Positions 1,461 to 20,305 of a DNA stretch of 64,000 nt are shown here, piece by piece. How positions within the stretch are numbered: the stretch's first letter is position 1; every line of letters starts with the position of its first letter. The DNA lies in assembly GCA_963971535.1 (NCBI GenBank), contig OZ020598.1, positions 96,539,650 to 96,603,649 on the forward strand, written 5' to 3'. The notes beneath the pieces are model-generated. The model was given only the letters and a program-made list of their open reading frames with translations, was not told where the DNA came from and made no database searches. The translations under genes and the position numbers were made by a program. Source of the stretch: Notolepis coatsorum. Lineage: Eukaryota; Chordata; Actinopteri; Aulopiformes; Paralepididae.

Positions 1461-1975
1461 GCAAGAACAGGCTGAAGCATAAGTCATTCAAGTAGATGCC
1501 GTCCATGGAAGAACAGTGTCCAGGGTAATTCCTTGTACTGTATGAACCAGGGAAACAGTGTGCTGGGGTACCCCAAGTTTGACTCTGGTTCGCTTGACAA
1601 TTAAGTTTGGGTCACTTCGGTTCCAAGAACAGGCTGAAGCAGCATATTCAAGTAGATGCCGTCCATGGAAGAACAGTGTCCATCAGGGTAATTCCTTGTA
1701 CTGTATGAACCAGGGAAACAGTGTGTGCTGTGCTGTGCTGGGGTAGCTGTGCTGTGCTGGGGTACCCTAAGTTTGACTCTGGTTCGCTTGACAATTAAGT
1801 TTGGGTCACTTCGGTTCCAAGAACAGGCTGAAGCAGCATAAGTCATTCAAGTAGATGCCAGGGTAATTCCTTGTACTGTATGAACCAGGGAAACAGTGTG
1901 TGGTGTGCTGTGCTGTGCTGGGGTACCCTAAGTTTGACTCTGGTTCGCTTGACTTAAGTTTGGGTCACTTCGGTT
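1461..1975. repeat. Tandem repeat of about 190 bp, partly coding
   Basis: Units begin with AAGAACAGGCTGAAGC near 1462, 1625 and 1819, each followed by a CTGTGCTG/GGGTACCC stretch. The leftward end of DUF4806-gene exon 12 (1928-1975) is made of this repeat. Confidence 0.8.
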
Positions 1976-4900
1976 CCTTGAGATGCCTCCCTCCCGGTCT
2001 GGCGCATAACGAAGCCACTTCTTGACAGTTTCGCTGTAGTCCTGGTCGGTCAGCTTGGGGTCAAACTGTCGAGCAGCAGCTGATAGACACAAAAATAAAA
2101 AAGGGAGGAAGAGAGGTGGGTGAGATGATGTACGATGATAAGAGCACCCGGCCCTCACTTCACACGAGTGCGATTTTTTTTAATCACTCAATTACTCACT
2201 CTGTAGGTCTACAGTAACAAGCTACAGTCAGCATCCAGTTAGACTGGACAGGAAAGAGAATTAAGCAATCGCAATACAATGTGTATCCATGCACCTCTAA
2301 AGCTCACCATTTCCATTTCCATTTGCAACAGCATAATTATATTCTGAATCACCAGCATCACCAGCATCACCACCGCACTACCTAAACTTAACCTATGAAG
2401 TAGTTTGCAGGGGAGGAAGCTCACCAAACATGCAGGCTTGTAGTGTGGTGTGCTTGAATGGCTTCTTGCTTTCTGAACAACGCTTGTCTTTCTTTCCAGC
2501 CCAGTTGAACCCACTGGCCAGGGCGTTGGTCATAGCAGTTTTCAACATCAGTCTGATCAGGTTCTCTGAATTGGTGCCTCCTACCAAAGCCAGGCGAGAA
2601 ATCTAAATCAGAGAGAAGAAAATGAAGGCCCTGCATTAGAAACAGCATAACGTTTATTTTATGAACACAGAGCAACCAACTTGTTTATACACACACTTTT
2701 TGCATGCACTGATATTCCAGCCCATGCCAGTCATTAGGTTTAACCACATTAACCCTCCTGTCCATATGTAAACGGTATATTTGAACAATTTCAAAACATT
2801 TCATAAATAGCAGATATACTGTTATGGTTTGTAACCGACCCCAATCGCACAACACAAGACAGGTATGATGGTTTGCCAAGAAACAGATATTTATTTAGAA
2901 CAGGGAAAAAGGGCACTGTCCCTTTAAGGGAGAAAACACAAAACACTGGAATAACACAAGAGGGGAAGGTAAAGTGCCCTTAAGAGGCGGGCAGGAAAAG
3001 GGAACACTATGGGAAGGTAAGGGAACGCCTAAGGGAAGGTTAAGGGAACGCCTAAGGGAAGGTTAAGGGAACGCCTTGGGAACAGAGGAACTAGAGACTA
3101 GAAGAACTAGGGAAAGAGGACTAGGGACTAGAAGAGCTAGGGATAGAGGACTAGGGACTAGGAGAACTAGGGATAGAGGACTAGGGACTAGGTGGAACTA
3201 GAAGGGGAGAACTTGGGACAGAGGGGACTGAGGCCCGCGGAGGCGGGCTGGGGAACAGGGAGGAACTGGGGACAGAGAACCGCGGAGGCGGGCTGGGGAC
3301 AGGGAGGAACTGGGGACTGGTGGGAAAACATCTGGGCCGCTCTGCAGAACAGAGGAGAGGGTTAATATTCAAAGGGAAAAAACAGAGCAGATGCAGAACA
3401 GTCCAAATAACAAAGTAACAAAGTAAATACTATCTTCGTGTGAACAAACACACAGTGGGAGATGAAATGTCCAAAATAATATCCACGAGAGAACAAAACA
3501 GAGTGGGAGATGAAATGTCCAAACTAATAACTAAGTGAGAACTAAAGGAGGCAATACGCTGGGAGAGTGACATCACAATCAAAACTCACCCAGGCGTATG
3601 CGTAATGGTACAGGAACAGCAGCGGGAACGGGGGCAAGAGGCATTACGCTGAGTGAGTGACATCACAATCAAAACTCACCCAGGCGTATGCGTAAAGGTA
3701 CAGGGACAGCAGCGGGAACGGGGGCAAGGGCACTACGCTGAGTGAGTGACATCACAATCAAAACTCACCCAGGCGTATGCGTAAAGGTACAGGGACAGCA
3801 GCGGGAACGGGGGCAAGGGCACTACGCTGAGTGAGTGACATCACAATCAAAACTCACCCAGGCGTATGCGTAAAGGTAAGGGACAGCAGCGGGAACGGGG
3901 GCAAGGGCACTACGCTGAGTGAGTGACATCACAATCAAAACTCACCCAGGCGTATGCGTAAAGGTAAGGGACAGCAGCGGGAACGGGGGCAAGGGCACTA
4001 CGCTGAGTGAGTGACATCACAATCAAAACTCACCCAGGCGTATGCGTAAAGGTAAGGGACAGCAGCGGGAACGGGGGCAAGGGCACTACGCTGAGTGAGT
4101 GACATCACAATCAAAACTCACCCAGGCGTATGCGTAAAGGTAAGGGACAGCAGCGGGGCGAGGGCATCGCCACCGGGTGGCTGGCTGTCCGAGCCGAGGA
4201 ACAGAGTGCTGGAACAGTGGCGGTGACGAGGGAGTCGTCCACCGGGTAGCCGACTGTCGGAGCCGAGGAACAGAGTGCTGGAACAGTGGCGGTGACGAGG
4301 GTGTCGTCCACCGGGTAGCCGCTGTCGGAGCCGAGGAACAGAGTGCGCGCCACACCTTGGTGTGCGCGTCGGAACAGTGGCGGTGGCGAGGGCGTCGTCC
4401 ACCGGGTAGCCGCTGTCGGAGCCGAGGAACAGAGTGCGCGCCACACCTTGGTGTGCGCGTCGGAACAGTGGCGGTGGCGAGGGCGTCGTCCACCGGGTAG
4501 CCGCTGTCGGAGCCGAGGAACAGAGTGCGCGCCACACCTTGGTGTGCGCGTCGGAACAGTGGCGGTGGCGAGGGCGGCGTCCACCGGGTAGCCGCTGTCG
4601 GGGCCGAGGAACAGAGTGCGCGCCACACCTTGGTGTGCGCGTCGGAACAGTGGCGGTGGCGAGGGCGTCGTCCACCGGGTAGCCGCTGTCGGAGCCGAGG
4701 AACAGAGTGCGCGCCACACCTTGGTGTGCGCGTCGGAACAGTGGCGGTGGCGAGGGCGTCGTCCACCGGGTAGCCGCTGTCGGAGCCGAGGAACAGAGTG
4801 CGCGCCACACCTTGGTGTGCGCGTCGGAACCGAGAGACGCCTCGGGGTGCGTCTGCGAGGAGGAGTGTGCCAAGCACGAAGGTCTGGAAGATGCGCGTCG

Positions 4901-7900
4901 GCGCGCTGAGGTCTGGAGAGCGTGCCAAGCTCGAAGGTCTGGAAGATGCGCGTCTGTGCGCTGGTACGGAGGAGCGTGCCAAGCTCGAAGGTCTGGAAGA
5001 TGCGCGTCTGTGCGCTGGTACGGAGGAGCGTGCCAAGCTCGAAGGTCTGAAGTGGAACACTGGAATACCTCCCGTAGAGGATTAGAGAGCGCAGTACAGT
5101 GTCTCCCTCCAGGCAAACGGCGGCAGGTGGCGAAGGCTTGAGCGCATCTGGCGCGCTGGTCTAGATGTGCGTCAGGACGAACAGCTGCGCTGGGGTCTGC
5201 AGTGGAACGCTGGGGTGCCTCCCGTGGAAGTTACAGGGAGCGCAGAACAGTCTCCTCCACAGGCTACGGCGACAGCAGACGAAGGCTGGAGCAAACATCT
5301 CAAGGCTGGAGAGATCCATCTTACAGCATTGGTAGACCAGAGGATCTCCCGAAAGAGTCTAGATGTTAGAGAATATGACTCAGCATGAATACAACACGAC
5401 CCCACGCCAAAACGAGGGGAAGCGCCCTGGTATTTAAAGCCCACAGGGGGACTAATTAGCCTGCCAACACAGGTGCGAGAGATAATAGAATATCAAACAG
5501 GTGTGGCCACTAAGGGTAAGGAACGAGAGGGTGGGGGCTAGAGAGAGTGAGTAGGGAATTCCTAACAGTAGGCTTAAAGAAGACAGAGAAAAGGTAGTGA
5601 GCAGCGGGCAAAACCTCACAGTACCCCCCCCTCAACGGGAGCCACCCGGCGACCCAAAACAAATACAGACAGAGTGGCAGGGGGCAAAACAAGAGGTACT
5701 GGCCAAGCCAGCAGGGGAAGCCACCACAAGAGTGGGGCTAGCAAAAGAAACAGGGTCGCCGAGGGGTAACTAGGGTAGCAGAGGGGCAACTGGTCTAGAG
5801 GAACTGGGTCTAGAGAACTAGTCTAGCGAACTGGGCAAGAGAACTGGTCTAGAGAACTGGTTTAGGGAACTGGTCTAGAGAACTGGTCTAGAGGAACTGG
5901 TCTAGAGGAACTGGGTCTAGAGAACTGGTCTAGAGCAACTGGTCTAGAGGAACTGGTCTAGAGGAACTGAGGGGCAAGCAGGGTAGCTAAGGGGTAACCA
6001 TGGAAGCACCGGGAAAGGGCTAGCAGAGGGAAGGTTAGCTGCCAGGGCACTGATAGCTACAGGGCCTATGCTAGCTGTACTGCTACATCAACATAGAGGC
6101 TGCGCAAGCTGCCGGAGCTAGGCTGGCAGACAGGGCTGGACCAGCATGAGAGCACAAGCTAGCTGGAAGGACAGTCCTAGCTGTGTGAGAAAAACTGACC
6201 TTGCTAGCTGAAAGGGCAGTCCTAGCAGTGGGATAAACTACACAAAAAAGTGGAGGCCACGCAGAGGGACCGGGTTAGCTGCTTGGGCCTGGCTAGCTAC
6301 AGGGCCCATGCCAGCTGCAAGGCTGCATTAACATAGAGGCTGTGCTAACAGCCGGGGCCAAGCTAGCAGACCGGGGCCATGCAGAGGGAAACTGGGTTAG
6401 CTGCCAGGGCATGGCTAGCTACATGGGGGTCAAACAGGGCAAAACGGGAAGCAAACAGGGGAGCTAACCGGGGAGACTAACAAGCTAAACAGGGGAGCTA
6501 GAGGGGACAAGAAAAAAAAAGGCAAACTCAACATACACCGTCTGTGCTGGCTGGGGTCGTCGATTTGGTGGGGTCGTACTGTTATGGTTTGTAACCGACC
6601 CCAATCGCACAACACAAGACAGGTATGATGGTTTGCCAAGAAACAGATATTTATTTAGAACAGGGAAAAAGGGCACTGTCCCTTTAAGGGAGAAAACACA
6701 AAACACTGGAATAACACAAGAGGGGAAGGTAAAGTGCCCTTAAGAGGCGGGCAGGAAAAGGGAACACTATGGGAAGGTAAGGGAACGCCTAAGGGAAGGT
6801 TAAGGGAACGCCTAAGGGAAGGTTAAGGGAACGCCTTGGGAACAGAGGAACTAGAGACTAGAAGAACTAGGGAAAGAGGACTAGGGACTAGAAGAGCTAG
6901 GGATAGAGGACTAGGGACTAGGATAACTAGGGATAGAGGACTAGGGACTAGGTGGAACTAGAAGGGGAGAACTTGGGACAGAGGGGACTGAGGCCCACGG
7001 AGGCGGGCTGGGGAACAGGGAGGAACTGGGGACAGAGAACCGCGGAGGCGGGCTGGGGACAGGGAGGAACTGGGGACTGGTGGGAAAACATCTGGGCCGC
7101 TCTGCAGAACAGAGGAGAGGGTTAATATTCAAAGGGAAAAAACAGAGCAGATGCAGAACAGTCCAAATAACAAAGTAACAAAGTAAATACTATCTTCGTG
7201 TGAACAAACACACAGTGGGAGATGAAATGTCCAAAATAATATCCACGAGAGAACAAAACAGAGTGGGAGATGAAATGTCCAAACTAATAACTAAGTGAGA
7301 ACTAAAGGAGGCAATACGCTGGGAGAGTGACATCACAATCAAAACTCACCCAGGCGTATGCGTAATGGTACAGGAACAGCAGCGGGAACGGGGGCAAGAG
7401 GCATTACGCTGAGTGAGTGACATCACAATCAAAACTCACCCAGGCGTATGCGTAAAGGTACAGGGACAGCAGCGGGAACGGGGGCAAGGGCACTACGCTG
7501 AGTGAGTGACATCACAATCAAAACTCACCCAGGCGTATGCGTAAAGGTACAGGGACAGCAGCGGGAACGGGGGCAAGGGCACTACGCTGAGTGAGTGACA
7601 TCACAATCAAAACTCACCCAGGCGTATGCGTAAAGGTAAGGGACAGCAGCGGGAACGGGGGCAAGGGCACTACGCTGAGTGAGTGACATCACAATCAAAA
7701 CTCACCCAGGCGTATGCGTAAAGGTAAGGGACAGCAGCGGGAACGGGGGCAAGGGCACTACGCTGAGTGAGTGACATCACAATCAAAACTCACCCAGGCG
7801 TATGCGTAAAGGTAAGGGACAGCAGCGGGAACGGGGGCAAGGGCACTACGCTGAGTGAGTGACATCACAATCAAAACTCACCCAGGCGTATGCGTAAAGG

Positions 7901-10900
7901 TAAGGGACAGCAGCGGGGCGAGGGCATCGCCACCGGGTGGCTGGCTGTCCGAGCCGAGGAACAGAGTGCTGGAACAGTGGCGGTGACGAGGGAGTCGTCC
8001 ACCGGGTAGCCGACTGTCGGAGCCGAGGAACAGAGTGCTGGAACAGTGGCGGTGACGAGGGTGTCGTCCACCGGGTAGCCGCTGTCGGAGCCGAGGAACA
8101 GAGTGCGCGCCACACCTTGGTGTGCGCGTCGGAACAGTGGCGGTGGCGAGGGCGTCGTCCACCGGGTAGCCGCTGTCGGAGCCGAGGAACAGAGTGCGCG
8201 CCACACCTTGGTGTGCGCGTCGGAACAGTGGCGGTGGCGAGGGCGTCGTCCACCGGGTAGCCGCTGTCGGAGCCGAGGAACAGAGTGCGCGCCACACCTT
8301 GGTGTGCGCGTCGGAACAGTGGCGGTGGCGAGGGCGTCGTCCACCGGGTAGCCGCTGTCGGGGCCGAGGAACAGAGTGCGCGCCACACCTTGGTGTGCGC
8401 GTCGGAACAGTGGCGGTGGCGAGGGCGTCGTCCACCGGGTAGCCGCTGTCGGAGCCGAGGAACAGAGTGCGCGCCACACCTTGGTGTGCGCGTCGGAACA
8501 GTGGCGGTGGCGAGGGCGTCGTCCACCGGGTAGCCGCTGTCGGAGCCAAGGAACAGAGTGCGCGCCACACCTTGGTGTGCGCGTCGGAACCGAGAGACGC
8601 CTCGGGGTGCGTCTGCGAGGAGGAGTGTGCCAAGCACGAAGGTCTGGAAGATGCGCGTCGGCGCGCTGAGGTCTGGAGAGCGTGCCAAGCTCGAAGGTCT
8701 GGAAGATGCGCGTCTGTGCGCTGGTACGGAGGAGCGTGCCAAGCTCGAAGGTCTGGAAGATGCGCGTCTGTGCGCTGGTACGGAGGAGCGTGCCAAGCTC
8801 GAAGGTCTGAAGTGGAACACTGGAATACCTCCCGTAGAGGATTAGAGAGCGCAGTACAGTGTCTCCCTCCAGGCAAACGGCGGCAGGTGGCGAAGGCTTG
8901 AGCGCATCTGGCGCGCTGGTCTAGATGTGCGTCAGGACGAACAGCTGCGCTGGGGTCTGCAGTGGAACGCTGGGGTGCCTCCCGTGGAAGTTACAGGGAG
9001 CGCAGAACAGTCTCCTCCACAGGCTACGGCGACAGCAGACGAAGGCTGGAGCAAACATCTCAAGGCTGGAGAGATCCATCTTACAGCATTGGTAGACCAG
9101 AGGATCTCCCGAAAGAGTCTAGATGTTAGAGAATATGACTCAGCATGAATACAACACGACCCCACGCCAAAACGAGGGGAAGCGCCCTGGTATTTAAAGC
9201 CCACAGGGGGACTAATTAGCCTGCCAACACAGGTGCGAGAGATAATAGAATATCAAACAGGTGTGGCCACTAAGGGTAAGGAACGAGAGGGTGGGGGCTA
9301 GAGAGAGTGAGTAGGGAATTCCTAACAGTAGGCTTAAAGAAGACAGAGAAAAGGTAGTGAGCAGCGGGCAAAACCTCACATATACAAGCTCTAACACGTT
9401 TTGAACTAGAAAGTGCTAAACACATTTTTCCCCTGAACAAGACCACACTGAAACAATCTACATTTGATAAATGAATGCAGTTCAATAAATTACCATCTTT
9501 TGACGGACTGATTGCTCCATCAGTAATGATTCTGCCTCATTGAAGTCTTGTTCACTGGCGATTGGCAGCTGGAAGGGGAGCATAGTGGTTGTGGTGGCCA
9601 CCCCGTGTCCCCTGGTCCCACCAGATATGTTGCCCTCAGCCAACTCGGTCTTGATGAACTGCACATCTCTGGATAGATCCTTCACCACAACAAGTAATTC
9701 AGCAAGCATTGAATTCATCTTCTGGATGGTAAGGTCTTCAGAAGAAGAGTTAAAATCATTAAGTGAGAAATAAAAATAAGCAGCAAATCACACGAGGAAT
9801 TACACCATGTCCAATAGACTTGCCTTTCATAAGCTGCCCGTCATCGCCGGCCATCTGTCTACGCTGTGAAACACCAGATTGCCCTGAGCTGTGTCCTGAC
9901 ATCGCTGTAGAAACAAAATCATAGTTATATATTTCACTAGTTTGACTGCATTGGATCAAACTGGTGGTAGTTCCCTCTAAAATGGCATACCATTTTGTGC
10001 ATGTTGTGAGAGACCAGGGGGACTGTAGTATTGCCCCGAGCTGCATCCCGACATCCCTGTAGAAACAAATCATTATATTTAAAAATACAAAATCTGACTT
10101 GTCAGTCAAATTAACATACATGTCACAATCACTAACACCGGTTCCTGACAGGCAGCAAGCGAGCGAACTGGAGACAAAATCGCACACGACACTGTCCTGA
10201 TATGACGCAGCGCGTGTCCGAGTGTGTGTTACCTGGATTCTCGACCAATAAAAAGTGTTTAGGGGCGGGACTCGGCCGCGTAATCGCTCAACTAGAGACA
10301 CAGCGAGCGAATATTTGAGGGGTGAACGACATCGCTGCTCAGTTCACTGTCGCTCGCGGCAGGTCAGGATAGTCTGATTGAAACGAATACATTTTAATCA
10401 CTTTTTCTCGCTCGCTCGCGTCGCTCTATGTCAGGAAGGGGTGTAAGGAGTTGTATCCCCGTCTCTCAAAACACTGTTACTGAAAGAGTACAGTATCATA
10501 CCACTACTTGCACTTTGTCGATCTTGCAGCTGCTGGACATGTGAGGCCTGCTGCTGCTGGTGATACTGAACAATATCAAATCCTGGCATCTCGGCTGAAA
10601 CACAGTAGGAAATACACAAAGTTATTAGCAAATGACGCTATTGTAATCCCCCATGTGAGAAAATGTTTGATTTCCATTCAGCTGATTTCACGTGCACTGC
10701 CAAATACTACTTTAATAAAAATATCAAAGACAATGCGAGACAATACAGATATTTTAAACATGCCAGAATATTATGTTATGAGATTGCTTGATAACTCACC
10801 ATTATGTTGAGTTAGCGATTGCCGGTAGTTGCTAGTAACCAGATCTACAAAGGGGAAATGTAAAATAAGTTGCGACTCAAACATGGTGGAAATTGTGCTC

Positions 10901-12319
10901 AATATAAAAGCATTATGTACAACTACACATTTTTATTGTGACATTGCTTGCAAGTTGTGAAGGCTTTGAATTTTTGTAGTGGGCTGGCATGCACATTGTA
11001 AACATGTATTCTGTTGCATGCATGATGCCAGCGACCTGCCAGCCATCTCCTCACAAGAACACAGATATGGGTTCACTTACTGTTATTTGGATCAGGAGTC
11101 TGCAACGAATCTAAATAGCTGTAGATCCTGCCACCATCCAAAGAATCTAAAAAAGGTAAGCCAGGGTGAGAATTGAAGATGCTACAAATCATGTTTAAAC
11201 AGTCATCTAGTTGGCATTTTAACATGCATAGCAACATACCATTCATTGTAGGGTCTTGGCCAACAACTGGAGGGTTGACGTATCTTAGCGCCTTACGAGA
11301 CCGGCTCGATTTTGGAGTCTGTCCTACAACATATTTTAGTTGGCATGTTATTCACAATGTATATATTTTGGGCCAACTATAGAATAACTGCAAGAAATGC
11401 AGAAGTCCAATCAAATTAAAATGCTCAATTTGTCGGTACATGGTCAGACTAATTTGTTTAACTGTTTATTATTATTATTAACTGTAGCCATTTCCAAAGT
11501 GCCTATATAAAATAAATGCATTGCATCAATACCTGGGAAACCCACATCAGGTGCTTTGGCAAAACGTTTTCTTTTGGCGTCGCCACTCGAGTCAGAGTCC
11601 GAGTGCACATACTGCTGATTTGGCCTAAAAAAAAGTATATATATACACACATATAAATAAATGTAGTTATGATACTACGTTTATTAGTCAAGGCTAAAGT
11701 CTGAATACATAGGCCCTCAGGCCACTGCGTGTTATCCTTTTAGCACTACTTGCAACTACAACAGCAGTGCCATTATTTACAACACCCTAGGGAGAGTTGT
11801 CCCTTTAACAAAGTGAACACTGTACCTGGATCTTCTTTTTTGGCGGAGATCTCCTTCGTCCTCAGATTCAATTTCAGAGGTTGGACACATAGTTGAGGTG
11901 TACTTGGTCTCTCGTTTTTTGGCCTCATCATGGGTCTCTGGAAAGAGCAGAGAGAAAATGACAATTAACATATCTGCAGTCCAGTGTTTAACGAAAAAAT
12001 ATATGTACCTCTTATCATATGTGCATCGTCACAATTTGCGTCCTCACTTTTTGTGTATGTGTTGCACGAAATACTCACCACACGTAGTAAGCTCACGTAC
12101 ATCCTTATAGGTGATCCATTTATCATCTGGTTGCAGTCCATCTCGAAGGGCTTTTGTGAGCTTTATGTGTTTAGGGGGCCATAACACAGTCTGGTCTTTA
12201 GCATTAAACCAGCTCCCTAGAACTACTGCTGTCCCACCATTTGGGAACTGTACAACTGACCACAGCACCACCTCACCATTCATCTTCAAAGGGCTGAAAT
12301 GAGAATTTACGGTACTCAT
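1928..12319 (-). CDS. 12-exon DUF4806-like domain protein, 489 aa
   Basis: Assembled by eye on the minus strand. Exons: 12079-12319, 11826-11937, 11533-11624, 11240-11323, 11081-11146, 10800-10844, 10502-10594, 9991-10056, 9806-9904, 9494-9735, 2425-2602, 1928-2079. All introns are GT..AG, every junction is in phase, and the total is 1470 nt with one terminal TAG. Exon 1 (residues 1-80) encodes a small domain with WSVVQFPNGGTAVV and a later VLWPP motif, common at the N-terminus of DUF4806 proteins. Next come an acidic linker, a basic DAKRKR patch, a Gln-rich stretch and a predicted helix (exon 10). The end (about 360-465) matches the DUF4806 pattern: a GG turn, FNWAGKKDK, and WLRYAPDR. Function is unknown. 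A TNP2-like transposase gene lies just upstream on the same strand, suggesting a transposon accessory protein or a derivative. Intron 10 carries a full LTR element. The weakest boundary is the exon 9 donor (GTGTAA). The start is the first ATG of exon 1. Confidence 0.82.
2820..5620 (-). repeat. 3' long terminal repeat
   Basis: 2801 bp. It differs from the other LTR at only four positions I could find (3164, 3237, 4577, 4788). It carries tandem arrays at about 3090-3200 (30 bp), 3546-4155 (87-89 bp, 7 units), 4160-4830 (70 then 91 bp, 8 units) and 4865-5050 (about 55 bp, 4 units). Confidence 0.93.
2890..2895 (-). promoter_or_regulatory. Poly(A) signal AATAAA in the 3' LTR
   Basis: AATAAA on the minus strand is followed about 35 bases later by a GT-rich stretch. 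The equivalent site in the other LTR is 6650-6655. It is sense-oriented to the host gene intron. Confidence 0.6.
5621..6579 (-). mobile_element. Internal region of the LTR element, non-coding
   Basis: Both ends carry GTAC next to the LTRs. About 5775-5975 is a short repeat rich in GGTCTAGAGAACT. About 6025-6420 contains two diverged GCTAGC-rich repeats. No protein-coding similarity was seen. Confidence 0.85.
6580..9380 (-). repeat. 5' long terminal repeat
   Basis: Same length and same array copy numbers as the 3' LTR, offset by exactly 3760 bp. Arrays map to about 7306-7915, 7920-8590 and 8625-8810. Confidence 0.93.
9191..9199 (-). promoter_or_regulatory. TATA-like box in the 5' LTR
   Basis: The minus strand reads CTTTAAATA, about 185 bp into the LTR. 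The same site is at 5431-5439 in the 3' LTR. It would put most of the 2.8-kb LTR, including all arrays, into the transcript. Confidence 0.5.
10138..10441. mobile_element. Possible MITE in intron 7 of the DUF4806-like gene
   Basis: CCTGACAGGCAGCAAGCGAG near 10145 is imperfectly inverted near 10410-10438. Target duplications could not be fixed. Confidence 0.4.
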
Positions 12320-12369
12320 AATGATCTCTCCTTACAAGCCATTCCCATACCGTCCTAAACTAATATAAT

Positions 12370-13411
12370 CCAGCCTTATTTCTGTCTGTAGTCGTCGGTG
12401 TAGGTTATCCAGTGTACATATCCACACGGTCCTCGTCTAGGGCTCCTCGGGTGAAAGCGCCAGGGTAAGCAGCCCAGCCTGGATAAGCACACTAGCTGGT
12501 ACGAGGAAACGTTGGTAATGCTGGTCACTGTAGAACGGTAGCCGCACGATACACTATACATAATAGACTAATAATAATAGAATAGGTCGAACTCAACGAT
12601 ACAGCTTTAAACTCTGACACTTCAGCTATCAATTTGCACGCGGTCTCAAGGCTCTATTTTGGGGCAAAACGGGCACACTTCACAGCACGTTGTATCGTGG
12701 TGAAGGCTTCAACTTATTGGGGTAACTAACTGCTGTATCCACCTGAAACGTATTTATACGTAAGGTGAATAATCTATAGTACCAGCCTTATTTCTGTCTG
12801 TAGTCGTCGGTGTAGGTTATCCAGTGTACATATCCACACGGTCCTCGTCTAGGGCTCCTCGGGTGAAAGCGCCAGGGTAAGCAGCCCAGCCTGGATAAGC
12901 ACACTAGCTGGTACGAGGAAACGTTGGTAATGCTGGTCACTGTAGAACGGTAGCCGCACGATACACTATACATAATAGACTAATAATAATAGAATAGGTC
13001 GAACTCAACGATACAGCTTTAAACTCTGACACTTCAGCTATCAATTTGCACGCGGTCTCAAGGCTCTATTTTGGGGCAAAACGGGCACACTTCACAGCAC
13101 GTTGTATCGTGGTGAAGGCTTCAACTTATTGGGGTAACTAACTGCTGTATCCACCTGAAACGTATTTATACGTAAGGTGAATAATCTATAGTACCAGCCT
13201 TATTTCTGTCTGTAGTCGTCGGTGTAGGTTATCCAGTGTACATATCCACACGGTCCTCGTCTAGGGCTCCTCGGGTGAAAGCGCCAGGGTAAGCAGCCCA
13301 GCCTGGATAAGCACACTAGCTGGTACGAGGAAACGTTGGTAATGCTGGTCACTGTAGAACGGTAGCCGCACGATACATTATACATAATAGACTAATAATA
13401 ATAGAATAGGT
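12370..13411. repeat. 412-bp tandem repeat, about 2.5 copies
   Basis: Copies start at about 12372, 12784 and 13196 and are nearly identical. The array separates the two copies of DUF4806-gene exon 1 and lies immediately upstream of the presumed functional start. Each unit contains a 61-codon open frame, which I regard as chance. Confidence 0.9.
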
Positions 13412-13563
13412 CGAACCAGCTCTCTAGAACTACTGCTGTCCCACCATTTGGGAACTGTACAACTGACCACAGCACCACCTCACCATTCATCTTCAAAGGG
13501 CTGAAATGAGAATTTACGGTACTCATAATGATCTCTCCTTACAAGCCATTCCCATACCGTCCT
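13412..13563 (-). pseudogene. Partial duplicate of DUF4806-gene exon 1
   Basis: This is nearly identical to 12210-12361: it carries the same start codon and about the first 37 codons of exon 1, then breaks into the edge of the 412-bp tandem array. It lies about 1.2 kb upstream of the functional-looking exon. It could be a dead copy or an alternative 5' exon. Confidence 0.75.
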
Positions 13564-13609
13564 ACAAAGCCAAAGTGCACTACACACATTGCATTTTTGA
13601 AGCATTTAA

Positions 13610-14938
13610 AGGAAAACTCCAACATTTTGTGAAATTAGCTTATTTGACATCTTCCCTGGAGTTATAAGAAGATACATACCTTTTTCGTCTCTCTGCATGC
13701 ATTGGGCTTAGGGAATGCCTGGACAGTTAGCCTAGCTTAACTTCATCACTGGAAGTGGGGCAGACATCTAACCTAGTTCACTACAGTCAGGAAATATACT
13801 CCAAATACAATCAAAATACAACTCCCAAACGTTCCCGTAAACATGTTGTGACCTGTGTATTTACCACGTCTCCCAGTCACACAAGTCACACAAGTCTCCA
13901 AGTCACACAAGTCTCCCAGTCACACAAGTCTCCAAGTCACATGAGTCACACAAGTCTCCAAGTCACAAGTCACACAAGTCCAAGTCTCCAAGTCACACAA
14001 GTCACACAAGTCCAAGTCACACAAGTCACACAAGTCTCCAAGTCACACAAGTCACACAAGTCTCCAAGTCACACAAGTCTCCAAGTCACACAAGTCACAC
14101 AAGTCCAAGTCACACAAGTCACACAAGTCCAAGTCTCCAAGTCACACGAGTCACACAAGTCTCCAAGTCACACAAGTCACACAAGTCACACAAGTCTCCA
14201 AGTCACACAAGTCACACAAGTCTCCAAGTCACACAAGTCTCCAAGTCACACAAGTCACACAAGTCCAAGTCACACAAGTCACACAAGTCCAAGTCTCCAA
14301 GTCACACAAGTCACACAAGTCTCCAAGTCACACAAGTCACACAAGTCACACAAGTCACACAAGTCACACAAGTCCAAGTCACACAAGTCACACAAGTCTC
14401 CAAGTCACACAAGTCACACAAGTCTCCAAGTCACACAAGTCACACAAGTCACACAAGTCACACAAGTCACACAAGTCACACAAGTCCAAGTCACACAAGT
14501 CACACAAGTCTCCAAGTCACACAAGTCTCCAAGTCACACAAGTCACACAAGTCACACAAGTCCAAGTCACACAAGTCACACAAGTCTCCAAGTCACACAA
14601 GTCACACAAGTCTCCAAGTCACAAAAGTCTCCCAGTCACACGAGACTCATGTGACTGGGAGACTCGTGTGACTTGTGTGACTGGGAGATGGGGTAAACAC
14701 ACAGGTCACAACATGTTTACAGGAACGTTTGGGAGTTGTATTTGGAGTATATTTCCTGACTGTAGTGAACTAGGCTAGATGTCTGCCCCACTTCCAGTGA
14801 TGAAGTTAAGCTAGGCTAACGGTCCAGGCGTTCCCTAAGCCCAAAGCATGCAGAGAGACGAAAAAGGTATGCATCTTCTTGTCCAACTCCAGGGAAGATG
14901 TTAAATAAGCTAATTTCACAAAATGTTGGAGTTTTCCT
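13610..14938. mobile_element. Foldback element flanked by TTAA
   Basis: Arms of about 260 bp (13610-13867 and about 14690-14938) are inverted copies beginning AGGAAAACTCCAAC. They are flanked by TTAA at 13606-13609 and 14939-14942. The loop is a satellite (13868-14650). Non-coding; mobilised in trans by a TTAA-specific enzyme. Confidence 0.88.
13868..14650. repeat. AAGTCACAC/AAGTCTCC minisatellite
   Basis: A composite of 9-bp AAGTCACAC and 8-bp AAGTCTCC units, entirely inside the loop of the foldback element. The long open frame across it is a repeat artefact. Confidence 0.95.
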
Positions 14939-15096
14939 TTAAGCGTTTCAATTGGCCAGCCAAACATGTTATCTCTGTACATGTAATATTGTACTAATTG
15001 TGTATTTATTAATGAGGTAAGTTATGCCCCAAAATCCGACGTTAGAGTCAGTGTGTCAATATAGTTACTGCACTTTAGCTTTGTAGGGCAGTATGG

Positions 15097-17199
15097 TTAT
15101 GCTGTTAAATGAAGTAGTGGTATTGCAATGGCACCATCTCCGTCTGGAGAGAGAAGACATTTGCGCTTGATATAGCGAAGTTTACCTATCCCTATATCTT
15201 CTTGCAAGCCACTGACCTTGTATATACCAATGTATGATGATTCACAGGGATACATGTAGTATGGCTGTTTGTGTCTGTACTTTCTGTAAATTATATATAC
15301 CTCTTCCTCTGATTTAAGAATATTCTCTACTAATGCAAATCCATCTCCAACCTCAATACAATTGTCTCCTTTCTTTGTGGACAAAGTAAACCGATGAGTG
15401 GAGACCTTCCTGTACTGTTGTGAAGAAGTAAACTGTGGGGGGACAGGCCCATCAGTGTGAATATTACGCAAAATTGGATCATCTGTGGGACATGGGGATC
15501 CAACATGTGGAATTTCAGACAACCTTTTCACTACCTGTTGTAGAGGCTGATGTGGCTTGCGTAGAAGATGCTTAATTTGTCCAAGATAGTTCTCAAAAGG
15601 GAATCCTGAGATATTATCTAGAGTGCCAAACTTCCTGTATTCCTCAGCCAAATGAATAAGCTGGTGTACATTGTACACAATTTCACCTCTTCCATACACT
15701 GTCCCAAAGTGTTCAACAAAAGAAGCCATCAACTTGTGTGCAAAGGCCAACATTTCCTCAGAAATACTAGGGGACAACAAGTACATTCCAACAGAAAACA
15801 ACATGAAGTTGTCATACAGCTCACTGGGGAGGGAATCCTTCAAAACAACAGGACCCCAATACAACATGAAGGATCGCAACTCAGTAGCTTTCCAGCGATC
15901 TAACTCTGACAGTTCCCTTGGTTTACGGTTAAATTCACAAGGCATGTAGGGACGTAGCTTTAGCAGTTTACCTGAAATGGCTTGTACAGTTTTGGAAGGG
16001 ACCCTTGTTGCCAAATTCTTCCCCTTTAACCATATATTAAGCAGTTTCCTTGTAACTCCGAGACAACAGAGATGCATGTAATCAGTTGGAAACATAGAAA
16101 CCATCTTAACTAAACCTGTTAAAGGGCTCGTCCCATTGTGATGTGCCTCATCAACCATGTCTGAGAAACTGGAGTCTGTCCTAAGTCTGACTTTTGTTTC
16201 AGGGTATGTCATTTTATTTCTCCATACACCCTCCTGAAAACACTTGTCACAACCAGAATAGCCATTAAATGCCTTGGTCTGCTTAATATAAGCTCTAGCC
16301 GGGGCATCACAAATGAAAGAAGAAATCTGTACATCAAATTGCTTGTCATTATAAATAATGCCATTAGACAGTACATTCTGAAGATCTTTGACAAACTGCT
16401 CTAGGTACTCAAAAACACTCTTTGGCTTGCTGAGACCACAAAAAATGCCAACAACAAATGGGGACTTTGTGTAGTCACATTTGAGACTTCCAAGTATGGG
16501 CCAAAACTGAAGTTTAGAACTTTTGAATAAAGGTAAACCATCTATATTAAACTGTAAATTAAGAGTTGTCAGAGTTGCCGGTAAAATCAAACATGCCAAC
16601 CGTGAAAGCACCCCTTTGACTAAACCAAAATGATAGTATTCTCCCCCTTCAATCTTAGTGGTAGGCACATGTTTTTGTGTTCCTAGCAATGTTCTTCCAT
16701 CTTTAGGAAGGGTGGGGTGAAACATCTTCAAAAAGGACAGCAAAGATGATAGTGCAACCAGAGAGACTGAATAGGATGTTGCCCAATATTTTAAACTTGT
16801 CATGAGGACATCTTCATTATGCTCATCACTGTCAAAGACATGTTCAGGTTCAATTTCGTCATCGCCAGCTATACTTTCAAAATGTGCATTTGACTCACCT
16901 GGTGAGTCAATATTTTCACTTTGATCACTGATAGTTAGTGGTCTGTTTAGTGGCAAGTCTGAAGTTGATAAATCTAGTGGCAAGTCTGATCTAGTTGTTA
17001 AATCTAGTGGCAAGTCTGTCTTTGGTAAATCGAGCAGGCACTCAGTATAGGCTGTGACAGGATCTGTGTTCTCTAAAGAGTGATGGTTTGTCCTTGAATT
17101 AGCAGCAACAATTAACTTATAATCAGTGAGGATAGCCTGCTCTGTCTCTCTCACTAATTTGTTGACTCTACGTCTTTTAGCCCGAGAATAAGATGACAT
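15097..17199 (-). CDS. TNP2-like (CACTA/EnSpm-type) transposase, 700 aa
   Basis: One uninterrupted ORF, with TAA at 15097-15099. Residues 215-230 read FNIDGLPLFKSSKLQFWP, the hallmark of the Transposase_21/TNP2 family. Candidate acidic catalytic residues are D220 (IDGLP), D298 (CDAPARAY) and D373 in TDYMHLCCLGV; E536 (PFENYLGQIKHLL) is a possible fourth. C317 and C320 may bind zinc. The first 130 residues are basic and then acidic, with tandem PLDLT (64-68) and PLDLS (74-78). The family cuts and pastes DNA ends of the CACTA type. The intact frame implies recent activity or selection. A CTACAG sequence lies 13 bases before the ATG, so an upstream non-coding exon is likely. The next gene downstream on the same strand is the DUF4806-like gene. 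An element with recognised ends was not found, so a domesticated host gene is the main alternative. Confidence 0.82.
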   Translation of the reverse strand: MSSYSRAKRRRVNKLVRETEQAILTDYKLIVAANSRTNHHSLENTDPVTAYTECLLDLPKTDLPLDLTTRSDLPLDLSTSDLPLNRPLTISDQSENIDSPGESNAHFESIAGDDEIEPEHVFDSDEHNEDVLMTSLKYWATSYSVSLVALSSLLSFLKMFHPTLPKDGRTLLGTQKHVPTTKIEGGEYYHFGLVKGVLSRLACLILPATLTTLNLQFNIDGLPLFKSSKLQFWPILGSLKCDYTKSPFVVGIFCGLSKPKSVFEYLEQFVKDLQNVLSNGIIYNDKQFDVQISSFICDAPARAYIKQTKAFNGYSGCDKCFQEGVWRNKMTYPETKVRLRTDSSFSDMVDEAHHNGTSPLTGLVKMVSMFPTDYMHLCCLGVTRKLLNIWLKGKNLATRVPSKTVQAISGKLLKLRPYMPCEFNRKPRELSELDRWKATELRSFMLYWGPVVLKDSLPSELYDNFMLFSVGMYLLSPSISEEMLAFAHKLMASFVEHFGTVYGRGEIVYNVHQLIHLAEEYRKFGTLDNISGFPFENYLGQIKHLLRKPHQPLQQVVKRLSEIPHVGSPCPTDDPILRNIHTDGPVPPQFTSSQQYRKVSTHRFTLSTKKGDNCIEVGDGFALVENILKSEEEVYIIYRKYRHKQPYYMYPCESSYIGIYKVSGLQEDIGIGKLRYIKRKCLLSPDGDGAIAIPLLHLTA

Positions 17200-17818: not shown

Positions 17819-18825
17819 ATTAAGTCTCAAACAGCCTGCAAACTACCTGGCGTTCTATCGCCATGCTCTAAGACAAACTCTAACCTTAACCAACTTAGAA
17901 AGAGTGCAAGGGGAGATGAAGCATATAGCGATATAAACATAGTCATAGCATCAAATTAGTATTTAGATAAGCCACAGAAAAAAATCACGTTATAAAAATA
18001 AGCAGTTTCTAAGAAAAAACGATTTGTTATGTGAAGCGCTTTATCAACATGGGCGCCGCCGTCGCGGTGCATTTAGCTAGCTGGCTACCTAGCCGCAGCC
18101 GGGATTCAAAGCCTACTAACCGGCTAACCCAGCTCGCTAAATACTGCATGTAGCTAGCAGAACTGTAAAATTAGTTTGAACAGCCATACAAAAAGAAACA
18201 CGCGGTCCCGTTGTTGTCTGGTAGGCAACGTTGCATTTACGGATCCACGTGTTTACTAGGCCAGCTAGCGCATGCTTCCTTGACTACTTCCTGTTCACCC
18301 AATAAGCATGCTTTTGATTGGCTGAGTCGCACAACGTCATTCAGTACCAACGCACGCAATTGGACCACGCAATTTCTAATCGTTGGCGCTATAATATTTA
18401 CATCGAAATAACTTAAACAACCGTACGATTCCACTTGCACACTCTCCAGAGTTATATTAAGCACACGCTACGAATATTCATGAATATTTATCTTAGTTGA
18501 CGTATATATATATTTACCTACCAAACTGCAGCATATCACATGCACAACGCCGTCAAGATCCACTGGTGCACACTCACAATAACGTTATTTTTCACAGAAC
18601 ACAGTTAAGATAAAAGTAATATAGCCAAAACTTACTGTAAAGCACTCAGTAGAATCAAATCCGGGGGGAACCAGACGTGCTGTTCTGAACAGCAGTTCAC
18701 ATTGAGAGATCGAGTGCTCAGCTGCATGCTGGGACGTACGTCTGTTTAAATTGGGGGGGGGGGAATTCGGGCCAACGTAATGACGACAAACAGCATATAC
18801 GTTGAACAGCATCCGTTGATTCAAC
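17819..18825. other. Upstream region of the TNP2-like gene, no gene seen
   Basis: No coding region recognised. A short CpG-rich patch at about 18040-18120 could be a promoter for the minus-strand gene, but no TATA box or initiator was identified. Confidence 0.3.
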
Positions 18826-19018
18826 ATTTATTAGATATTGGCATTTCAATCATTAAAATGCAACCACAAAACAATATTGATTCAATGATATGTTTTCAAC
18901 AATAGTCAATTGCTTTAGCGGTTAATGGGTGATTCAACATCAATCGTCGACCTTAACCAAAAAGCAAGCATTGTGACCATAAATCAACATTGAATTAACA
19001 CCTTTTGCTATCTGGGTG
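18826..19018 (-). other. Possible CACTA-like terminal and subterminal region
   Basis: Read on the minus strand it begins CACCCAGATAGCAAAAGG and carries repeated GTTGATTCAAC/GTTGAATC-like motifs, as subterminal regions of teleost EnSpm elements often do. No partner end was found left of the DUF4806-like gene. Tentative. Confidence 0.3.
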
Positions 19019-20150: not shown

Positions 20151-20152
20151 TC

Positions 20153-20305
20153 ACTAGGTCATCATGTAGACAGTCATAACAACAGTTAGAACTACACTAG
20201 GTCATCCTGTAGACAGTCATAACAACAGTTAGAACTACACTAGGTCATCCTGTAGACAGTCATAACAACAGTTAGAACTACACTAGGTCATCCTGTAGAC
20301 GACTG
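20153..20305. repeat. 43-bp tandem repeat, about 3.5 copies
   Basis: The unit includes GTAGACAGTCATAACAACAG. Confidence 0.85.

Follow-up and report, generated by a model that had tools for sequence, protein, structure and literature searches.

A two-gene, TRC-type transposon candidate in Notolepis coatsorum pairing a transposase frame with a spliced DUF4806 gene

The window analysed here, a stretch of 64,000 nt from the 3.42 Gb genome of Notolepis coatsorum (G000:C43:96539650-96603649), carries a multi-copy DNA transposon with two genes inside it, a transposase and a spliced gene for a protein with a DUF4806 domain. The two genes have spread together within common ends flanked by 2-bp target duplications. 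As its CCC ends, its 2-bp duplications and the motifs of its transposase (one of them in part) are as published for TRC elements, the transposon is best placed as a TRC-type (animal CACTA-related) member of the CMC/CMCT group. We consider it likely that this is a two-gene TRC-type transposon in which a DDE transposase is accompanied by a spliced DUF4806 protein with a role like that of plant TNPA.

Ends, target duplications and class of the element

The initial annotation had placed a two-gene module at 1928..17199. Both genes do lie there, but the element is larger, reaching 19016 on the right and, in other copies, 768 bp beyond base 1 of the window on the left. Its 5' end and its two genes are:

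19002..19016, minus strand: 5' terminal inverted repeat CCCAGATAGCAAAAG, the outer edge of the element, located by flank matching and base-by-base reading
15100..17199, minus strand: transposase frame (gene 1), an open frame of 700 aa with no internal stop and 64 scored genome copies
1928..12319, minus strand: second gene (gene 2), 12 exons and 483 aa, a frame model with predicted splicing: 12319-12079, 11937-11826, 11624-11533, 11323-11240, 11146-11081, 10844-10800, 10594-10502, 10056-9991, 9904-9824, 9735-9494, 2602-2425, 2079-1928

With a probe from the right flank (40 of 5460 candidates scored) all 39 of the other matches scored ended at query bases 617-631, which puts the edge at window 19016, or slightly past it where bases agree by chance, and reading the right end base by base put the divergence immediately after GCTATCTGGG in 9/9 other fetched loci. 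Directly left of the window, all 3000 bases at C43:96536650-96539649 (L059) are N and may be an assembly gap; hence the 3' end was taken from two other copies. These are 99.5% identical as far as 768 bp past window base 1, where both end in TTTTTTGCTATCTGGG and their flanks then differ (common left end in 2/2).

The inverted repeat CCCAGATAGCAAAA, which begins with CCC, is found at both ends of the element. A left-end match accompanies 29 of the 40 right-end matches, and 13 of these paired copies were examined with both flanks. A target duplication of exactly 2 bp was seen in 10 of the 13, against a chance expectation of 1 in 16 for a 2-bp flank match; of the remaining three, one lies in a C run and is ambiguous, a second has one base in common and the third none. 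The 29 paired spans measure 8.7-24.4 kb, with 24 at 8.7-13.9 kb; the window's own span in this list is overstated by ~1.5 kb, since the match runs past the end. We estimate the window element at about 13 kb without the LTR retrotransposon described below, assuming that it ends on the left as the other copies do.

A search for CACTA ends around other copies had been proposed initially; CCC ends with a 2-bp duplication were found instead. Measured by the yardstick of CAC..GTG termini and a 3-bp duplication (PMC1636069, PMC12730594, as far as their available text goes), CACTA/EnSpm in the strict sense was rejected: the ends are CCCAGATAG and not CACTA, and the duplication is 2 bp and not 3 bp. 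In the available text of the respective papers, CCC ends with 2-bp duplications are described for SmTRC1, A. aegypti and T. castaneum (PMC1636069) and for Hydra Spongebob (PMC4298943), and TRC ends are said to be definable only in S. mansoni, A. aegypti and T. castaneum (PMC1636069). Because the copies are near-identical, we judge that the element has recently been active as a cut-and-paste transposon.

Joint spread of the two genes

The transposase is present in 64 scored copies at 99-100% protein identity (the best 64 of 1214 candidates), and within 30 kb of 41 of these an exon 1 of gene 2 was listed, the exon 1 list comprising the best 150 of 668 candidates. In all 41 cases the exon lies downstream on the same strand, 1.7-4.6 kb from the transposase. 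The pairs are found at many sites on 16 distinct contigs; random placement would give 0.17. The adjacency at many sites that had been named initially as the mark of a transposon is thus what we observe, and the proposal of a two-protein, CACTA-like animal transposon is upheld by a pair that keeps its order and strand from site to site, within shared ends and with 2-bp duplications.

Two other readings can be dismissed on these counts. Nested repeats do occur here, as the LTR insertion illustrates, but that two unrelated elements merely lie side by side by chance in the window is refuted by the 41 recurrences of the pair, all with one order and strand, where 0.17 would be expected, and the pairs sit inside the common ends described above; we give this reading practically no weight. 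Just as improbable is the domesticated host pair at one conserved site which the initial annotation had offered as its other choice: both frames are open as it would have them, but dozens of near-identical copies with shared ends on those 16 contigs refute it because of their copy number and target duplications.

In the remaining 23 of the 64 transposase copies no exon 1 was found among the matches listed. Four of these are on C8, and for each of the four either exon 11 or the 3' region was located downstream. At C8:198908470 and C8:22084084 the 3' region with exons 11-12 follows the transposase, and among the matches listed exon 11 is found downstream at C8:22084084, C8:52747105 and C8:160149562. 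The other 19 unpaired copies are on contigs absent from the exon 11 list, which holds the best 150 of 790 candidates and omits even the window's own exon 11. We conclude that gene 2 belongs to the transposon.

The transposase

The 700-residue frame of the initial annotation stands as described, being open for 700 codons from 17199 to 15100 on the minus strand, and translation confirmed that both this frame and that of gene 2 are unbroken in the window. The frame is free of stops in 62 of the 64 scored copies, and in 29 other copies the DNA identity to the window frame is 99.48-99.76%.

Motif definitions were taken from the available text of PMC1636069 and PMC12730594. TRC motif I is exact at aa 213-235, where it includes D219, and 0/20000 shuffles of the protein match it. 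D298 follows at a spacing of 79, the sole CxxC (CDKC 317-320) and the sole HxxxH (HQLIH 512-516) fall between the second D and the E, and FPFENYLG at aa 533-540 includes E536; motif I, a D-D distance of ~80 and CxxC, by which TRC transposases are recognised, are thus found together. The D and E residues are putative catalytic residues, their assignment being read from the motifs. For the eumetazoan box A, [LVI]Dx[LM]HxxxLG, the strict motif gave 0 matches; TDYMHLCCLG fits except for its first residue, which is unlike the TRC consensus (PMC1636069, available text), and the looser form that it represents was found in 20/20000 shuffles.

The protein called TNP2-like at first has the TRC/CMCT motifs, one of them in part, but the Pfam TNP2 model PF02992 (Transposase_21) gave no match to it at E up to 10. 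A Pfam search with the whole frame likewise gave no match at E up to 10, and in pieces the transposase gave DUF4218 (E 0.055) and a stray Cytochrom_B561 (E 0.15), both under their cut-offs. When PF02992 was searched against the genome (150 of 253 candidates scored) no copy of the window's transposase family was found. The score of this HMM was not taken as defining TRC membership; for SmTRC1 itself similarity to Transposase_21 is reported and that to TNPD was already weak (BLASTP 1e-5), according to the available text of PMC1636069. A separate Transposase_21 locus, G000:C6:153135334-153135705 (L082), scored 76 bits with PF02992 and is the only locus at E 0.001 or better among the 150 of 253 candidates scored. 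It was rejected as a relative of the window family, BLAST showing no relation (best E 0.40).

Among the transposase copies 32 silent and 27 changing variants were counted (two of the latter are stops; shared variants number 4 and 0), giving a pN/pS of ~0.29 that is only suggestive, since the loci had been picked by protein score. An AlphaFold model of the transposase alone had a mean pLDDT of 35.3 and was set aside. No relatives were confirmed in viral and prokaryote contigs with six peptide patterns, and a degenerate FPFENYLG pattern excluding the window family's own codon gave no match to other TRC families.

The spliced DUF4806 gene

A same-strand frame of 12 exons and 1470 nt had been described initially. 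The twelve exons and their compatible phases hold, but the length is 1452 nt with the stop, a difference of 18 nt. The gene runs from an ATG at 12319 to a stop at 1928 and the frame is kept throughout. Of the eleven introns, ten have GT-AG borders and the other, intron 9, has GC-AG. Its recognised domain is split by predicted introns:

2075..9577, minus strand: DUF4806 domain (PF16064), running through exon 10 (9577-9494) and exon 11 (2602-2425) into exon 12, of which it takes in the initial two residues (to 2075); coordinates converted from the matched residues

Over its C-terminal 146 aa the protein scores 37.8 bits with DUF4806 (E 2.4e-09; positions 4-90 of the 90 in the profile), above the curated Pfam cut-off of 25 bits, hence the assignment of the second protein to the DUF4806 family was correct for the spliced domain. 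Exon 10 alone gave no score and exon 11 alone 17.1 bits, and joined they gave 37.5 bits. As joining the two exons yields a near-complete domain over the cut-off, the predicted splice between them, which spans an inserted LTR retrotransposon, is independently supported by the restored domain. DUF4806 was missed by hmmscan with the full-length 483-aa model, and a weak DUF637 match, below its cut-off, covers the same stretch. PF16064 gave no match among 26 candidates in the unspliced genome, as expected because the domain is split over exons. A phmmer search of the PDB with the gene 2 protein yielded nothing better than weak matches (E 0.067 or more). DUF4806 is described as a BEN subtype in the available text of PMC11075544, where DNA binding is given via a citation.

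Among the best 150 scored copies of exon 1 (668 candidates), 88 are 100% identical, and for exon 11 this is true of 150/150 of the best-scored copies (790 candidates). As the exon 11 list is ranked from the best score down, and 8 intron 11 codons at the tail of the query are no less identical among copies, this identity shows the youth of the copies rather than constraint. In exons 2-6, 8/399 sites are variable as against 20/1100 in introns, so that no constraint on these exons is visible among the 10 young copies compared, which were chosen by exon 1; one of the ten is broken. No intron-less copy of gene 2 was seen among 88 of 4274 candidates scored, and one candidate at C23 was rejected as an intron-bearing deletion copy.

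Insertions and repeats in the window copy

2820..9380: LTR retrotransposon in intron 10 of gene 2, with LTRs at 2820-5620 and 6580-9380, an inner part of 959 bp and a 5-bp duplication TATAC
12370..13416: 412-bp tandem repeat, 2.5 copies, directly upstream of gene 2 exon 1, located by repeat finding

The edges of the retrotransposon were read from the printed sequence. Its LTRs, each 2801 bp long and largely made of tandem repeats, are 99.857% alike over 2804 bp (4 mismatches), and the insertion is young. A probe with the first 1.18 kb of the LTR gave 38 long matches elsewhere among 40 scored, and another gene 2 copy was seen without the retrotransposon; the LTR unit is not part of the transposon. 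Because of this insertion in intron 10, gene 2 of the window copy may be impaired despite its intact exons.

Between the two genes, at 13606-14942, a 'CAAGTCACACAAGTC' minisatellite is flanked by inverted arms that match each other at 91% over 312 bp. The array is also present in 27/29 other transposase loci, and the unit is a nested MITE-like unit that is now part of the transposon family. A second partial copy of the first 39 codons of exon 1 lies at 13410-13526, by the 412-bp repeat (12370-13526). Outside the element, at 20152-20300, there is a 43-bp tandem repeat of 3.5 copies.

Terminal palindromes and a possible mechanism

18816..18885: two subterminal TTGAWTCAA palindromes (18877-18885, 18816-18824), converted from element positions
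18984-18993: related TCAATGTTGA near the 5' end, converted from its element position

Of the odd palindrome TTGAWTCAA, the first 400 bp of the element contain two sites and the last 500 bp, as read in two other copies (L060, L061), contain four; none was found in 11.8 kb of the interior. The mean number of such sites in resampled end sequences was 0.02, and 0/2000 reached the count at either end. Two of the four 3' sites fall within an 80-bp tandem duplication. Sites of a related form, TCAAYRTTGA, number one at one end and two at the other.

We suggest that the gene 1 product would act as a DDE transposase, and that the DUF4806 (BEN-like) protein of gene 2 may bind the TTGAWTCAA palindromes inside both ends and bring the ends together for the transposase, like plant TNPA. 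The protein would probably also regulate the element's own promoter, for which the 412-bp repeat upstream of exon 1 is a candidate. End-binding is inferred from the analogy with plant TNPA/TNPD, and we put the chances that the DUF4806 protein binds TTGAWTCAA and pairs the ends at about even. For plant Spm, the available text of PMC1636069 describes transposition as requiring TNPA as well as TNPD, with TNPD interacting with TNPA and making the binding of TNPA to DNA more stable.

Alternatively, gene 2 could be carried by the element without being needed for transposition, its protein acting on chromatin or silencing, as has been proposed for the TET/JBP genes borne by fungal transposons. Other transposons, EnSpm among them, carry TET/JBP genes (PMC12730594), and BEN domains, of which DUF4806 is a subtype, are predicted recruiters of chromatin-modifying factors (PMC11075544), both as given in the available text of these papers; the lack of visible constraint in exons 2-6 fits as well. 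Against this speaks the clustering of the palindromes at both ends, as expected of an end-binding partner, and, as a weak point, the complete identity of exon 11 in its best-scored copies. We regard a chromatin or silencing role as rather unlikely, at about one chance in four, and prefer an end-binding partner of the transposase.

Comparison with known systems

All comparisons here refer to the available text of the papers cited. SmTRC1 and the animal TRC elements resemble the present element in the CCC outer end, the 2-bp duplication, motif I, CxxC and a D-D distance of ~80, and spliced second proteins are reported there besides the transposase frame (PMC1636069). They differ in size, SmTRC1 being 4.5 kb as against the 8.7-13.9 kb of most paired spans here, and in the second protein, which here comes from a 12-exon DUF4806 gene, whereas SmTRC-PrA/PrB are reported to lack similarity to other sequences (PMC1636069). 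Hydra Spongebob/EnSpm-4N1_HM, assigned to TRC, has a TIR CCCAGCCAACATTGAC that starts with CCCAG and a 2-bp duplication, and CAACATTGA is both part of that TIR and present in the 3' subterminal region of the window element (PMC4298943). Unlike the present element, its transposase is broken by stops or frameshifts, and that text mentions no second gene.

Maize En/Spm (TNPA + TNPD) likewise joins a transposase-type protein to a spliced second protein (PMC1636069), but its ends are CACTA and TNPA is likened to the DUF4806 protein by role alone. The DUF4806 domain (PF16064) is found in four genes of zebrafish chromosome 4, which are treated there as host genes, whereas the DUF4806 gene described here is inside a mobile element (PMC11075544).

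Discussion

TRC transposons are already known, and what is new here is a TRC family whose second gene is recognised as DUF4806. So far, animal relatives of CACTA have been recognised from transposase and ends, and no family had been assigned to the second proteins of SmTRC1 (PMC1636069, available text). In the parts available of the literature on DUF4806, CACTA, EnSpm, TRC and BEN we found no link between DUF4806 and a transposon; the family may stand in Repbase.

DUF4806 is counted 69 and 54 times in two species of Hydra and 0-6 times in each of five other cnidarians, transposase domains being listed in the same table (PMC7642931), and it is an enriched domain in a beetle (PMC13270666), both as given in the available text. 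The two-gene element offers an explanation for such expansions, which in those texts are listed unexplained. Further, we speculate that DUF4806 proteins might at root be the second, end-binding protein of TRC transposons, that the lineage-specific bursts of DUF4806 genes in Hydra, the beetle and zebrafish chromosome 4 might be unrecognised transposon genes or domesticated descendants of them, and that TTGAWTCAA might be the DUF4806 binding site; this wider proposal is tentative, and we hold it to be a good deal less probable than its opposite.

The second gene is a candidate animal counterpart of the helper protein known from the plant relatives, in a DUF4806 family that is little understood. 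The present family, in which dozens of unbroken copies are nearly identical, the ends are defined and palindromes cluster, makes the role of the DUF4806 partner directly testable.
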